IMG/VR virus record: IMGVR_UViG_3300017756_003168
Location: 1-27,330 of that record
Strand: one strand, 5' to 3'
From: a virus
Length of the DNA: 27,330 nucleotides
This document shows positions 1 through 11,999 of this stretch, piece by piece. The notes under the pieces are model-generated. The model had not been told where the DNA came from and ran no database searches. It saw only the letters and a program-made list of their open reading frames with translations. The position numbers were made by a program, and so were the translations under genes. Positions within the stretch are counted from its first letter, which is position 1. Each line of letters starts with the position of its first letter.

Positions 1-8
1 AAATTTAG

Positions 9-82
9 TGGAGGATATCGGAGTCGAACCGATGACCTCCTGCGTGCAAGGCAGGCGCTCTAGCCAGCTGAGCTAATCCCCC
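9..82 (-). tRNA. tRNA-Ala (anticodon UGC)
   Basis: The minus strand folds into a full 74-nt cloverleaf: a 7-bp acceptor stem, a 4-bp D stem, a 5-bp anticodon stem with loop CTTGCAC (anticodon TGC at 48-46), a 5-nt variable loop and a 5-bp T stem with loop TTCGACT. The acceptor stem carries a G3:U70 wobble (window positions 80 and 12), the known main identity element for alanyl-tRNA synthetase, and the discriminator is A73. CCA is not encoded after A73, so the host must add it. It lies 6 nt beyond the stop of the preceding gene and is probably co-transcribed with it. A synthetase-like gene for the same amino acid lies at 11011-11862. Confidence 0.96.
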
Positions 83-4067: not shown

Positions 4068-4901
4068 TTAAAAAATTACAGTTTTATTTCCGTTTAAAAA
4101 TATTCTCTGTTCACTATGATATTTTATTGCTTTTGATAGTGTGGCTTTTTCAAGGTCTCTACCTATTAACTCCATATCCTTTGGACTTTTTGAGTGATCT
4201 ATCCTTTCTACCATTTGTTCAATGATTGGACCTTCATCAAGGTCTGCAGTAACATAATGTGCTGTAGCTCCGAGAATCTTAACTCCTCTATCATGTGCTT
4301 GATGGTATGGCCTTGCTCCTTTAAAACCTGGTAAAAATGAATGGTGAATATTTATAATCTTGCCTGAATATAATTTACAAAATGTAGGAGATAATATCTG
4401 CATATATCTTGCAAGTACAATTAATTCTATATTTCTCTCTTCTAGAATTTCAAATGTAATTTCTTCTTGTTCTTCTTTAGTTTCTTTTGTAATTGGAATG
4501 TATCGATACTCTATGCCCATGCCTTCAACAAGTTTTCTCATATCTTCATGGTTTGAAATTACACATTGAATATCTATGTTTAGTTCACCTGCACTCCACT
4601 TATATAAAATGTCATGTAAGCAGTGTCCGTATTTAGAAACAAATATTGCTGTCTTTGGTTTATTTTCTACTTCCTTTAAAGACCATGTTGCACCAATGTC
4701 ATCTGCTACTTTTTGAAATTCAACATGATTAAACTCATTTAGAGATGCTATTTTTGTTAGCATAAAAAAGGTATTAGTATCTTTATCTCCATACTCCTTT
4801 AATTCTCTAAAGAAAAATCCAAGTTTTGTAACAATTTCTGAAATTCTAGAAACTATTCCAAAACCATCTTTACATCTTATTTTTAAAATATATTCTTTCA
4901 C
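4068..4901 (-). CDS. purU: Formyltetrahydrofolate deformylase (PurU)
   Basis: A 277-residue protein matching PurU over its whole length. Residues about 4-75 form the N-terminal ACT-type regulatory domain; 82-277 form the formyl-transferase/deformylase domain, with LARYMQILS (163-171), INIHHSFLPGFKGARPYHQA (183-202) and ADLDEGPIIEQ (219-229). The Asn-His-Asp catalytic residues of the family correspond to Asn184, His186 and Asp222, all present. The reaction hydrolyses 10-formyl-THF to formate and THF; in cells it balances the one-carbon pool and can supply formate for purine synthesis. The gene overlaps the GH16 gene by 4 nt and is in the same operon as guanylate kinase. A purU in a phage is uncommon in my knowledge. 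Confidence 0.93.
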   Translation of the reverse strand: MKEYILKIRCKDGFGIVSRISEIVTKLGFFFRELKEYGDKDTNTFFMLTKIASLNEFNHVEFQKVADDIGATWSLKEVENKPKTAIFVSKYGHCLHDILYKWSAGELNIDIQCVISNHEDMRKLVEGMGIEYRYIPITKETKEEQEEITFEILEERNIELIVLARYMQILSPTFCKLYSGKIINIHHSFLPGFKGARPYHQAHDRGVKILGATAHYVTADLDEGPIIEQMVERIDHSKSPKDMELIGRDLEKATLSKAIKYHSEQRIFLNGNKTVIF

Positions 4902-8837: not shown

Positions 8838-9028
8838 AAGATTGTTTTAATAATTTTTTTAATAATAAAACTTGCTATCCAGATAGCAACTAAAGCTATT
8901 AAAGCTTGTAATGGACTTGTAATTATAAATAGTAGTACTTTAAAAAATATATTTATAGCTAAATAAATAACGCTTGAGCTTATACAAAACGTTAAAATAA
9001 TTAATAGAATAAATGTTGTTTTTGACAT
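8831..9028 (-). CDS. Small membrane protein (65 aa, two TM)
   Basis: A 65-residue, almost wholly hydrophobic protein with two predicted transmembrane helices (about residues 5-30 and 38-57) and a basic C-terminal end (KKIIKTILC). It is the first gene of the ligase operon, placed directly after copy 3 of the repeated promoter-like element. No family recognised; holin-like topology is compatible but unproven. Confidence 0.6.
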   Translation of the reverse strand: MSKTTFILLIILTFCISSSVIYLAINIFFKVLLFIITSPLQALIALVAIWIASFIIKKIIKTILC

Positions 9029-9040
9029 ATTGTTTTAAGT

Positions 9041-9104
9041 TTTAATTATAATACTAATATAACTATAATCTTTGACCCGTGAAAATTTTGAGGCAACTTT
9101 TTTC
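9041..9104 (-). promoter_or_regulatory. Repeated promoter-like element, copy 3
   Basis: Minus strand TTTTCACGGGTC, 11 nt, TTATATTAGTATTATAATTA, ending about 13 nt before the ATG at 9028. It would drive the long operon from the 65-residue membrane protein through ligase and perhaps down to guanylate kinase; no further copy occurs until 1660. Confidence 0.6.
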
Positions 9105-9113
9105 ACTTTTTTT

Positions 9114-9323
9114 TCACTTTTTTAAAGTTTCTGATATTTGATACAAATTTATAATCATAATTGCCGTATTTGTAATTATGATAGGCATACTGAGAATAAG
9201 TAAACCATAAATTGTAAATAAAAAACAACCTATAGTATTGGCTATTCTTAACCATTTTAAATTTCTTATAGTAAATGAAAATATTACTATTGCTGTTGCG
9301 ACATATCCTAAGATCTCTATCAT
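9114..9323 (-). CDS. YgjV/SemiSWEET-like small membrane protein
   Basis: The frame is open from 9371, but the start at 9323 (MIEILGYVATA) is preferred because the upstream 45-residue gene ends there in an ATGA overlap. The 69 residues give three hydrophobic helices (about 3-20, 27-45, 48-64). The phrases LRIANTIGCFLFTIYGLL and PIIITNTAIMIINLYQI are typical of a widespread family of short three-helix membrane proteins related to YgjV and to half-transporters of the SemiSWEET kind. Substrate and role unknown; transport would need dimerisation. Confidence 0.65.
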   Translation of the reverse strand: MIEILGYVATAIVIFSFTIRNLKWLRIANTIGCFLFTIYGLLILSMPIIITNTAIMIINLYQISETLKK

Positions 9324-9461: not shown

Positions 9462-9929
9462 TTAAAAATCTCCTGGTGCAACTTGCATACATGTTATATC
9501 ATTTTTTCTCCACATGTTTACAACTTTATCTCTGTCATCAAAGACGCAAACAATGTTGCTTTTATCTGGAAATAAATCATCTAACCAATTTTGTTTAAGT
9601 TGATCGTCTGGCTTAAACATCCAATCTTTGCCAGTTGGTCTCATCTTAATTACATGGAAAGGTACTTTATGTTTAACCAACCAACTTTTAGTAGTCAATT
9701 GAGTACCTTTACTTCTACCACTAAATATAGCTATCATGTGACCGGACTCTGCAAGTATTTGAGCCATCTTTATCACAGCATGATTTGGCTGATCTAACTT
9801 TATATTTGCAGGATCGAAAAATATATCCCAATCTAATTTACCATTTGGCTTAGTCGCAAGCTTTCTTCTTGCATCTATATTCGCTAAGGTTCCATCTAAG
9901 TCGAATATTACCCATTTTTGATCTGTCAT
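9462..9929 (-). CDS. HAD-family polynucleotide 3'-phosphatase (PseT C-terminal-like)
   Basis: A 155-residue HAD phosphatase. FDLDGTLA (9-16) carries the nucleophile Asp10 and Asp12; FSGR (69-72) is motif II; Lys106 in the FKPDDQLKQNWLDD region is a candidate for the motif III lysine; VFDDRDKVVNMWR (129-141) is motif IV. The ending ITCMQVAPGDF closely resembles the C-terminal phosphatase domain of T4 polynucleotide kinase (PseT). The N-terminal kinase domain is absent, and no separate kinase gene is seen in this window. It would remove 3'-phosphates from DNA or RNA ends before ligation. Promoter-like copy 4 lies just upstream. Confidence 0.85.
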   Translation of the reverse strand: MTDQKWVIFDLDGTLANIDARRKLATKPNGKLDWDIFFDPANIKLDQPNHAVIKMAQILAESGHMIAIFSGRSKGTQLTTKSWLVKHKVPFHVIKMRPTGKDWMFKPDDQLKQNWLDDLFPDKSNIVCVFDDRDKVVNMWRKNDITCMQVAPGDF

Positions 9930-9940
9930 TTTTTTACGTT

Positions 9941-10004
9941 TTAAATTTATAATACTAATATAACTATTTTCTTTGACCCGTGAAAATTTTTAGGCATTTA
10001 TTTT
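9941..10004 (-). promoter_or_regulatory. Repeated promoter-like element, copy 4
   Basis: Minus strand TTTTCACGGGTC then AAAGAAAATAG, then TTATATTAGTATTATAAATT. The variable spacer differs from other copies while both flanking blocks are kept. It ends about 11 nt before the phosphatase ATG at 9929. Confidence 0.6.
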
Positions 10005-10139
10005 TTAATTATTTTTACGTTTATACTTTTTACAATCAGCTTTACTGCCTTGGAATACAACAGAATCATCTATATTATCAATGACTTGATAAATATCTCT
10101 ATACTCATATAATGCTACTATATATAAATTCCTTTTCAT
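10005..10139 (-). CDS. Small hypothetical protein (44 aa)
   Basis: A 44-codon frame starting MKRNLYIVALYEYRDIYQVI and ending CKKYKRKNN. It begins 10 nt after the stop of the 62-residue gene, in the same unit. A strand-rich N-terminus and a basic C-terminus are all that can be seen. It resembles short phage proteins that start with a YIV...Y strand and have no known role. Confidence 0.5.
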   Translation of the reverse strand: MKRNLYIVALYEYRDIYQVIDNIDDSVVFQGSKADCKKYKRKNN

Positions 10140-10149
10140 AACCTTTATT

Positions 10150-10338
10150 TTATATAAATTTTATTCCTAATTTCTCACAACCTTCTTCAAACTCAACGTG
10201 AATTTTATTTATTTCAACATATTCGTCCAAAGTAATAACTGGATTATCTGAATGAAAATTAGAACATAACTCCCAATCATATTGAGATTTACTACTCCAA
10301 CTTAAACTTAACTTTTCTATATTTTCTTTATTTGCCAT
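10150..10338 (-). CDS. Hypothetical protein (62 aa)
   Basis: A 62-residue acidic protein with two Cys residues (WELCSNF and EEGCEKLGI) and a helical C-terminal half. No recognised domain. It is the first gene of a two-gene unit behind promoter-like copy 5. Confidence 0.6.
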   Translation of the reverse strand: MANKENIEKLSLSWSSKSQYDWELCSNFHSDNPVITLDEYVEINKIHVEFEEGCEKLGIKFI

Positions 10339-10350
10339 AACCTTTATTTT

Positions 10351-10412
10351 TAATTATAATACTAATATAACTATAATCTTTGACCCGTGAAAATTTTTAG
10401 GCAACTTTTTTC
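10351..10412 (-). promoter_or_regulatory. Repeated promoter-like element, copy 5
   Basis: Minus strand TTTTCACGGGTC, 11 nt, TTATATTAGTATTATAATTA, ending about 12 nt before the ATG at 10338. Its upstream end runs into the last codons of the preceding gene (stop at 10397), so coding and control sequence overlap. Confidence 0.6.
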
Positions 10413-10777
10413 AACATTTTTTTAGTTGCATAGTTTAGAATTTTTTTAAGTCTTTCTTCTCTTGTGTTTAGCATAATTCTTTCTCTACCTATCCAATTAT
10501 AAGTATTGCCTGTTTCTGGACTTTTCCAAGAAGCTGGATAAGTTCTAGTTGGATTTAATTGCCAACAAGTATCTTGTAACAGTCTACTATCTGACATTCT
10601 AATATAATATCTTATTTTTCTAACATAACCAGTAGAATATTCTGCTACAGTTTCTCCAGTCTTTAGTCTCCACATTGAAGTACCGTTTTTCTTTTGTGTT
10701 TTAGATGAGATATTTTTTGCACCCATTGTTTCTAAAACTTCTTCGTAGATTTTTTCTTTACTTTCCATTATTTTCAA
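10397..10777 (-). CDS. Hypothetical basic protein (126 aa)
   Basis: A 126-residue basic protein. It has a helical start, a probable beta-rich centre (TSMWRLKTGETVAEYSTGYVRK) and a helical, very basic C-terminus (TREERLKKILNYATKKMLKK). No family recognised; the charge suggests nucleic acid contact. Two starts are possible, 10777 or the fourth codon at 10768, both overlapping the preceding 51-residue gene. Confidence 0.65.
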   Translation of the reverse strand: MKIMESKEKIYEEVLETMGAKNISSKTQKKNGTSMWRLKTGETVAEYSTGYVRKIRYYIRMSDSRLLQDTCWQLNPTRTYPASWKSPETGNTYNWIGRERIMLNTREERLKKILNYATKKMLKKVA

Positions 10778-10913
10778 GTGTTAATTTGTGATTAATTAAT
10801 TTTTTCATTGTTATGGCAGCTCTGTGCACCCAATATCTATTGTGCATCATTTTGGATTCTCCCATATAATCCATCTTGTCATCTAATTGATCTATTATTT
10901 TATTCCAGTTCAT
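10758..10913 (-). CDS. Small hypothetical protein (51 aa)
   Basis: A 51-codon frame starting MNWNKIIDQLDDKMDYMGES and ending NNGK. Its stop lies inside the start region of the next gene and it follows promoter-like copy 6 by about 17 nt, so it is the first gene of that unit. It is helical, with Met- and His-rich centre (KMMHNRYWVHRAA). No known family. Confidence 0.55.
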   Translation of the reverse strand: MNWNKIIDQLDDKMDYMGESKMMHNRYWVHRAAITMKKLINHKLTLENNGK

Positions 10914-10930
10914 ATTGTTTATTTTTAAAT

Positions 10931-11010
10931 TTTAATTATAGTACTAATATAAACAAAAAAAGCGACCCGTGAAAATCCCGAGGCGCTTTTTTTCAAAAAG
11001 TTATTAACAA
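10931..11010 (-). promoter_or_regulatory. Repeated element copy 6, with terminator-like hairpin
   Basis: In the minus direction it reads TTTTCACGGGTC then GCTTTTTTTG, then TTTATATTAGTACTATAATTA. It differs from the other copies in that AAAAAAAGCG (10984-10993, read on the minus strand) can pair with CGCTTTTTTT (10955-10964), a 10-bp stem ending in a run of seven U. So this copy can act as an intrinsic terminator for the AlaRS-like gene (stop at 11011) and as a promoter for the 51-residue gene (start 10913). Confidence 0.6.
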
Positions 11011-11862
11011 TTATAGACCTAATTCGTTCATTTCATCGATGTCGATACCATGTGTATCAAACCACCATTCTTTATCTTTATCTTGGTGCTTTTCCTTAAG
11101 TCTAAGATACCTAAGTTTCGTTTTTTCTTGTCTTTCAACTTCTTTTCTAAAAAACTCATGATCCATATAACCATTATTACTATATAAAATTCTAAGAAGT
11201 TTACGCAATACATAACCTTGTTTTTGTGGACCTGGCTTATAACCTGAATCTATAATTTTTAATATAGTGTCTTCGAGTGTCTCATTTGCACTCTTTATCT
11301 TTGTACCATTAACTATAGCATCAAGTCGCTCAAGGCCAAACCCGACATCTATAAAGTCTCCTGAGGTGTTTACAATGTTACCTATTTCTATACCATCGTG
11401 ATAGAATTCTGTACAATATCCTCCCATTTCTCCATCTGTCCAAACACATTCATCATCTAATTTTAAGGGAGTTTTATAAAGGTCATACATCCATTTCCAA
11501 TTATCAAATTTATCAGAATGAATTGTTGCACAATCAACATGAATGTCAAGTTCTTCTTGTATAAATCCCATCCAAAATTCAACAGCCTTATTAACTGTCA
11601 TTTCTCCAAAACTAAAAAGACCTAACATGTTAAAATATAAAAGATGACTTCCATCTCCTATCTCATCAATATCTTGTAGTCTTAAACATGATTGAACATT
11701 GGCTATTGTTGTACCATCTGGATTTTTAAAACGATCTTTAAATTGCTGCATGCCAGCAGGACAGAAAAGTGTTGTATCATCATAAGGTCTTACATGATTA
11801 TCCATTTGAAATTGAATTCCATGTCTTTCACAATATGTAATATACTTTTCTAAAACATTCAT
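11011..11862 (-). CDS. Compact alanyl-tRNA synthetase-like protein
   Basis: A 283-residue class II synthetase of the AlaRS type. AGMQQFKDRF (36-45) and QSCLRLQDIDEIGDGSHLLYF (from 57) through NMLGLFSFGE (78-87) correspond to motifs 1-2; DGEMGGYCTEFYHDGIEIGN (143-162) is the adenylate/alanine pocket; GFGLERL (174-180) is motif 3. GYVLRKLLRILY (216-227) and FDTHGIDIDEM (268-278) recall conserved parts of the tRNA-recognition domain. The editing and C-Ala domains are missing; cellular AlaRS is about 870 residues. It may charge the phage tRNA-Ala at 9-82, or may have been turned to another amino acid-transfer reaction. The start overlaps the stop of the preceding small gene (TAATG). Confidence 0.85.
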   Translation of the reverse strand: MNVLEKYITYCERHGIQFQMDNHVRPYDDTTLFCPAGMQQFKDRFKNPDGTTIANVQSCLRLQDIDEIGDGSHLLYFNMLGLFSFGEMTVNKAVEFWMGFIQEELDIHVDCATIHSDKFDNWKWMYDLYKTPLKLDDECVWTDGEMGGYCTEFYHDGIEIGNIVNTSGDFIDVGFGLERLDAIVNGTKIKSANETLEDTILKIIDSGYKPGPQKQGYVLRKLLRILYSNNGYMDHEFFRKEVERQEKTKLRYLRLKEKHQDKDKEWWFDTHGIDIDEMNELGL

Positions 11863-11999
11863 TATTTACCTTGTCTATTATATGGTTTTTTATAATTTTT
11901 AGACTTTTTATTATTAGAAGTTTTTTTAGAGTGTTGACCCTTTCTTCTTCTTTTCATTCCATCTAAATTACCATTTCCTAATGCTTTTACTCTTGACAT
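11862..11999 (-). CDS. Small, very basic protein (45 aa)
   Basis: A 45-codon frame starting MSRVKALGNGNLDGMKRRRK. About 15 of 45 residues are Lys or Arg, with many Asn, Gly and Ser, so it is probably unstructured alone and binds RNA, DNA or the ribosome. Its stop overlaps the AlaRS-like start (TAATG), giving translational coupling. That coupling may hint at a shared role in translation, but this is inference. Confidence 0.65.
   Translation of the reverse strand: MSRVKALGNGNLDGMKRRRKGQHSKKTSNNKKSKNYKKPYNRQGK

Follow-up and report, generated by a model that had tools for sequence, protein, structure and literature searches.

A reduced AlaRS-like protein and an ordinary tRNA-Ala(UGC) in a large myovirus-type phage, with no support for a fixed private pairing of the two genes

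The reading of the G3:U70 base pair by alanyl-tRNA synthetase (AlaRS) is the textbook acceptor-stem ("operational") code, and this pair is a universal alanine identity element. In E. coli AlaRS, N303 contacts U70 and D400 contacts G3 (PMC10036535). The AlaRS of Tupanvirus (461 aa) has neither an editing nor a C-Ala domain and carries a proline (P321) at the position of N303; it binds and charges microhelix-Ala specifically, charges G3:U70 tRNA and complements yeast (PMC10036535). The E. coli N461 fragment, which contains the entire tRNA-recognition domain, has a low affinity for tRNA (Kd >32 uM) and does not work in yeast (PMC10036535). Huge phages that encode tRNAs as well as synthetases, with as many as 15 per genome, have been described (Al-Shayeb et al. 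2020, PMC7162821); the main text of that paper mentions neither an alanyl synthetase nor size reduction.

The DNA analysed here is a stretch of 27,330 nucleotides, referred to as the window, which belongs to a large marine phage of myovirus type with a T4-like terminase and a contractile sheath. A preliminary description had placed a tRNA-Ala(UGC) at 9-82, with its identity pair at positions 80 and 12, in the same genome region as an AlaRS-like gene (micro-AlaRS below), and had proposed that the two form a private charging pair. The tRNA gene is confirmed by ARAGORN (tRNA-Ala, anticodon TGC, at 8-82, minus strand), by an Rfam covariance search (RF00005 at 9-82, minus strand, 68.8 bits, E = 2.8e-13) and by reading of the sequence. 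Its minus-strand acceptor is GGGGGAU...AUCCUCC-A, with G3 exactly at base 80, U70 at base 12 and A73 at base 9; CCA is not encoded, and the anticodon loop (CUUGCAC) is ordinary. A cloverleaf with an alanine anticodon, G3:U70 and A73 are all present, and the gene is an ordinary, canonical tRNA-Ala of bacterial type, about which the RNA fold z-score of -1.6 tells no more than the covariance score does. An identical sequence is found in the related phages G005 and G009.

Among all tRNAs of the loci examined, G3:U70 occurs in 22 of the 25 distinct tRNA-Ala sequences and in just two other tRNA calls, and is thus a genuine alanine signature. The three tRNA-Ala without it are two 88-nt "Ala(AGC)" calls, which in our judgement look misassigned, and a second, aberrant copy in G026. 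Codon usage was considered as a test of the role of the tRNA and set aside as uninformative, because the alanine codons of the window (GCA 304, GCU 146, GCC 25 and GCG 19; GCA/GCU 91%) fit tRNA-Ala(UGC) but also simply fit a G+C content of 31%. Elsewhere, the tRNA-Ala at L168:19366-19439 has the acceptor stem of the window's gene (GGGGGAT/ATCCTCC) on an unrelated body and is a possible chimera. In three close relatives, G003, G007 and G004 (loci L011, L014 and L018), the slot of window 9-82 near micro-AlaRS holds a tRNA-Ala(UGC) whose sequence clearly differs, which looks like a swap of the tRNA that left the anticodon of the slot the same.

The AlaRS-like gene of the preliminary description is real as well, although about 11 kb off. 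It lies at 11011-11862 on the minus strand and encodes a protein of 283 aa (P0001), which matches PF01411 in Pfam (E = 2.4e-20) and TIGR00344 alaS (E = 3.9e-21), and its best matches, both by profile and by PDB sequence, are AlaRS exclusively. The protein comprises a catalytic core and a condensed tRNA-recognition part; the editing and C-Ala domains that a full-length AlaRS possesses are absent, and its TIGR00344 score of 75 bits falls far below the full-length NCBIfam cut-off of 457, so that we class it as a reduced variant and not as a standard AlaRS. In the alignment with E. coli AlaRS it retains class II motifs 1-3, the alanine pocket, the CLR arginine, the conserved Trp, EIGNIVN and the motif 3 Asp, and both the class II motifs and the conserved alanine-pocket residues expected of an AlaRS are found in the alignments and their invariant columns. 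Loops of the catalytic domain and most of the tRNA-recognition domain have been dropped: the latter now comprises about 90 residues in place of about 210, with about 120 lost, and the C-terminus lies just past WWFDTHGID. That the gene is truncated, or has its missing half nearby, was ruled out by the similar length of its homologues and by the lack of an editing domain elsewhere in the records searched. The 53 micro-AlaRS proteins of at least 260 aa, from large phages, measure 266-332 aa (median 283), a steadiness which indicates that micro-AlaRS is not a broken gene, and a search for a separate editing domain (tRNA_SAD) elsewhere in 14 records found none, while the control matched in 14/14.

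The catalytic residues are invariant in 34 diverse sequences, the others being 48-95% identical to the window's protein. This holds for the motif 2 arginine, R61 (CLR, where E. coli has CVR; 11680-11682, minus strand), and for D172, G174, G176 and R179 in motif 3 (D172-R179, DVGFGLER; 11326-11349, minus strand), where D172 aligns with the Asp that binds alanine in AlaRS. Micro-AlaRS is under purifying selection, with a dN/dS in the window's clade of about 0.09 (range about 0.04-0.12). Of the two residues that read G3:U70, the equivalent of D400 is kept as D269 in WWFDTHGID (11056-11058, minus strand), and the equivalent of N303 is P212 (11227-11229, minus strand), a proline as in Tupanvirus AlaRS. 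Of the 43 phage sequences in the alignment, 34 have Asp at the D400 equivalent and 23 have Asn at the N303 equivalent; members have Asp, Glu, Asn or Ser at the first position and Asn, Pro or His at the second. The WW-DT segment is strongly conserved among micro-AlaRS sequences.

An AlphaFold2 model, built on an alignment of 34 natural sequences (pLDDT 90.5, pTM 0.83), is predicted to have the AlaRS fold, with Z of 22-23 to the E. coli, A. aeolicus and human enzymes. When the predicted model was compared with known structures, 18 AlaRS entries were found at Z 18.6-23.3, among them E. coli AlaRS residues 2-416 (Z 23.3) and A. fulgidus AlaRS bound to G3.U70 tRNA-Ala (3wqy; Z 18.9), and the next family was GlyRS alpha, at Z 15. 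In a comparison with predicted viral structures, giant-virus alanine--tRNA ligases of 464-513 aa matched best. Model residues 1-283 superpose on the catalytic and tRNA-recognition regions of AlaRS, the C-terminal part included, in condensed form. Other stripped class II synthetase paralogues use non-tRNA acceptors, and micro-AlaRS might likewise be an amino-acid-activating enzyme that serves a carrier protein, a peptide or a nucleotide, as its reduced tRNA-recognition part, the replacement of N303 in many members and the lack of tRNA-Ala on some contigs would allow. We consider this improbable, given that the whole chain superposes on both AlaRS regions, that conservation is strong at the D400-equivalent Asp and in the WW-DT segment, and that micro-AlaRS stands among cognate tRNA and synthetase genes in the remote phages G026 and LR745206.

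Two scans yielded 55 viral loci, together with LR745206.1 (635 kb) and a single locus from a Rhizobiales assembly. All phage micro forms group together in a tree whose outgroups were E. coli AlaRS and the AlaRS of a gut phage record, and no others. A nucleotide-similarity search for a bacterial origin, by distant blastn, returned tRNA-level and housekeeping matches alone. The Rhizobiales locus (UEIF01000048.1, "Rhizobiales bacterium" assembly, L122), the sole micro-AlaRS locus that one scan found in the bacterial genome collection, has a frame disrupted near residue 40; the contig may be that of a phage, assigned to a bacterium in binning. At L112, a tRNA-Pro(GGG) at 10831-10905 overlaps the 3' end of the micro-AlaRS frame (9929-10840) by 10 bases. 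In G004-G006, G008 and G009, searches for three families turned up no further class II synthetase (PF00587, PF00152) and no member of PF00133.

In remote huge phages, micro-AlaRS is found in clusters of synthetase and tRNA genes. LR745206 (635 kb) encodes, in a row, a mini-GlyRS (246 aa), micro-AlaRS, tRNA-Gly, tRNA-Ala and a Thg1-like gene, and in G034 and G035 three tRNA-Ala and two tRNA-Pro lie within 1 kb upstream of micro-AlaRS. G026 (508 kb) carries 15 synthetase or synthetase-like genes, the short ones including TrpRS (240 aa), HisRS (211), GlyRS (266) and AlaRS (275), and has a cluster of two tRNA-Ala, GlyRS, AlaRS and TyrRS. As a set, its synthetases are nearer to their cognate tRNAs than in label permutations (0/20,000); those for Val, His, Phe, Asn and Trp are not close to theirs. 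In G027 and G030, tRNAs other than tRNA-Ala are nearer to micro-AlaRS. The clustering with tRNA-Ala indicates that the family travels with cognate tRNAs in some lineages, and gene order of this kind supports tRNA charging as its probable function, with alanine charging backed in particular. In G026 (L134 / L100), a PheS-related "mystery ligase", SrmL (L134:11861-12961), sits beside the 211-aa HisRS-like gene.

In the window, micro-AlaRS is about 11 kb from tRNA-Ala and not adjacent to it. The same order is conserved in G003, G004, G005 and G007, the close AlaRS-positive relatives with enough sequence, where tRNA-Ala is about 12-14 kb from micro-AlaRS; the contigs of G001 and G002 end too soon for the presence of tRNA-Ala to be judged. 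To this extent the proposed pairing is supported, in part, but the pattern does not extend to the sisters. The collinear G043 and G044, and by position also G045, G046 and G060, have tRNA-Ala in the same slot and no micro-AlaRS on the contig. Among relatives anchored on the DNA ligase gene, both L167 and L168 run from tail genes through the 74-aa gene, ligase, guanylate kinase, sigma factor and 95-aa gene to tRNA-Ala, with other genes in the place where micro-AlaRS would be, and L169, L170 and L191 likewise have tRNA-Ala, farther along the same contigs; profile searches of these whole contigs (L167-L170, L191) found no micro-AlaRS, and positive controls matched. On contigs of at least 75 kb, tRNA-Ala was present in 10 of 14 that bear AlaRS and in 6 of 11 that lack it (P = 0.43 by Fisher's exact test), counts to be read with caution, as contigs are genome fragments, are phylogenetically non-independent and in some cases could have an AlaRS elsewhere. 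No tRNA-Ala was seen on the AlaRS-bearing contigs G017, G028, G032 and G037 (84-149 kb), which are possibly fragments. Thus, obligate pairing of tRNA-Ala and micro-AlaRS is not supported, and the two are not a fixed private pair. The preliminary description had held that the pairing would be chance if related phages kept the tRNA without the synthetase, or the reverse, with no co-occurrence, and this is largely what we found.

These results bear on the proposed privacy, by which the phage AlaRS would charge the phage tRNA-Ala alone and the two genes would be kept together against host tRNA cleavage or AlaRS shutdown. Such an orthogonal pair is very unlikely. It would fit the presence and synteny of both genes in all close AlaRS-positive relatives with enough sequence, and the state of G038 (L117, 279 kb), in which a frameshift at a run of T and a stop codon (TAA) in frame disrupt micro-AlaRS, and the 21 tRNAs named by ARAGORN include no tRNA-Ala; this is possibly one case of joint decay of the two genes, or an assembly error. 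However, the tRNA carries the universal identity pair alone, with an ordinary A73 and anticodon loop and no altered identity elements that would exclude the host enzyme, and the universality of G3:U70 leads one to expect cross-charging with the host both ways, which counts against privacy. Collinear sisters retain tRNA-Ala without AlaRS, there is no association across contigs, and obligate co-occurrence is not observed among these incomplete genomes. Moreover, the same-slot tRNA differs between the window and G005 on the one hand and G003, G004 and G007 on the other, beside AlaRS proteins that are 90-95% identical, from which it follows that the tRNA is exchangeable. A search of the window's clade for a T4-type RNA ligase (PF09511) found none.

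Another reading is a looser relationship: tRNA-Ala and micro-AlaRS may be unrelated cargo in variable slots that concern the same amino acid by chance, with the AlaRS mainly serving host tRNA-Ala. In L167 the slot of AlaRS, between a 74-aa gene and 51-aa/126-aa genes, is occupied by other genes, tRNA-Ala occurs both with AlaRS and in its absence, and the two genes are 11 kb apart, whereas the clustering with tRNA-Ala in remote huge phages speaks against independence. We regard this reading as possible but doubtful; it overlaps on chemistry with the explanation that we prefer and differs on whether the two genes are selected together.

The explanation that we prefer, and think probable, is that an ordinary, lineage-owned tRNA-Ala(UGC) is accompanied by a separately held, reduced AlaRS which charges any G3:U70 tRNA, that of the phage and that of the host. 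The tRNA would belong to the phage lineage and supplement GCA/GCU decoding. Micro-AlaRS would most likely use ATP to activate alanine at an ordinary class II active site and would pass the alanine to the 3' terminus of any tRNA whose acceptor stem has G3:U70, phage and host tRNA-Ala alike, the stem being read through D269 and a short helical remnant; charging would involve neither an editing step nor an elbow-binding C-Ala domain, as in the Tupanvirus mini-AlaRS. The phage would gain a supply of Ala-tRNA that does not depend on the host during infection. The tRNA and the enzyme can plausibly work together. Against the preferred explanation stand the loss of about 120 tRNA-recognition residues, given the poor tRNA binding of the E. 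coli N461 fragment even with that domain complete, Pro or His at the N303 position in many members, AlaRS-bearing contigs without tRNA-Ala, and collinear relatives with tRNA-Ala and no micro-AlaRS. We infer catalytic activity, tRNA specificity and benefit to the phage; of the steps, tRNA binding is the weakest, because the phage protein is 178 residues shorter than Tupanvirus AlaRS.

The surroundings of the gene show further features. A 45-aa basic ORF directly upstream of micro-AlaRS (11862-11999, minus strand) shares its last base with the micro-AlaRS start codon and is conserved in L006; judging by the spacing, the two are probably co-transcribed. A terminator-like perfect 10-bp inverted repeat (AAAAAAAGCG...CGCTTTTTTT; 10955-10993, minus strand) follows micro-AlaRS and falls within one of six copies of a 102-nt intergenic repeat (1279-1380, 1562-1663, 9023-9124, 9924-10025, 10331-10432 and 10913-11014), which are 65-80% identical to the reference copy. 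The repeat contains the terminator-like part and a TATATTAGTATTATAA-like part, and looks like a terminator-plus-promoter unit of this phage. A formyl transferase gene (4068-4901, minus strand; 277 aa, with PF00551 on residues 83-259 and a PurU-like layout) sits between GH16 and guanylate kinase genes that are merely about 200 bp apart in L006, and is an apparent cargo insertion. A stand-alone PNKP-type HAD phosphatase (9462-9929, minus strand), upstream of an ATP-dependent DNA ligase and 94-97% conserved in L006/L007, possibly acts in end repair.

Micro-AlaRS, which is among the shortest AlaRS on record, is more unusual than the tRNA, the latter being ordinary by itself. We lean towards the view that it represents a widespread phage family of about 266-332 aa, acceptor-stem-only and possibly the shortest natural AlaRS, with the G3:U70 domain condensed to about 90 residues, which in the largest phages belongs to cognate tRNA-synthetase modules. 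If so, reduced AlaRS evolved in phages too, beyond the giant viruses of amoebae, and a natural core-plus-remnant enzyme that exists in many residue variants would allow one to ask what minimum is needed to read G3:U70.

We found no phage AlaRS of this size in the literature searched, an absence which is not proof of novelty. The only PHROG family matched by micro-AlaRS is phrog_28604 (E=2.9e-9, residues 4-146), an 897-position profile with no function given and three times the length of micro-AlaRS, and no PHROG family fits the micro form. The sets described for huge phages, as far as the main text of that study goes (PMC7162821), resemble that of G026, where 15 genes encode synthetases or synthetase-like proteins and a number of these are short. 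Bacterial AlaRS, as in E. coli (876 aa; TIGR00344, PF01411), shares with micro-AlaRS the class II motifs, the alanine pocket, the D400 equivalent and a whole-chain Z of about 23, at 20-27% identity in fold alignments; unlike it, micro-AlaRS is without editing and C-Ala domains and without about 120 residues of the tRNA-recognition domain. The Tupanvirus mini-AlaRS (TuAlaRS) differs in being encoded by an amoeba virus and related to the host AlaRS, in being 178 residues longer with a full-size tRNA-recognition domain, and in having Thr at the D400 position where the phage micro-AlaRS has Asp (PMC10036535). Both are viral enzymes that consist of catalytic and tRNA-recognition parts alone, with Pro at the N303 position, and Tupanvirus also carries a G3:U70 tRNA-Ala (PMC10036535). 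In its make-up, the protein of the window matches a mini-AlaRS of the Tupanvirus kind, an AlaRS without editing and C-Ala domains in a virus with its own tRNA-Ala.
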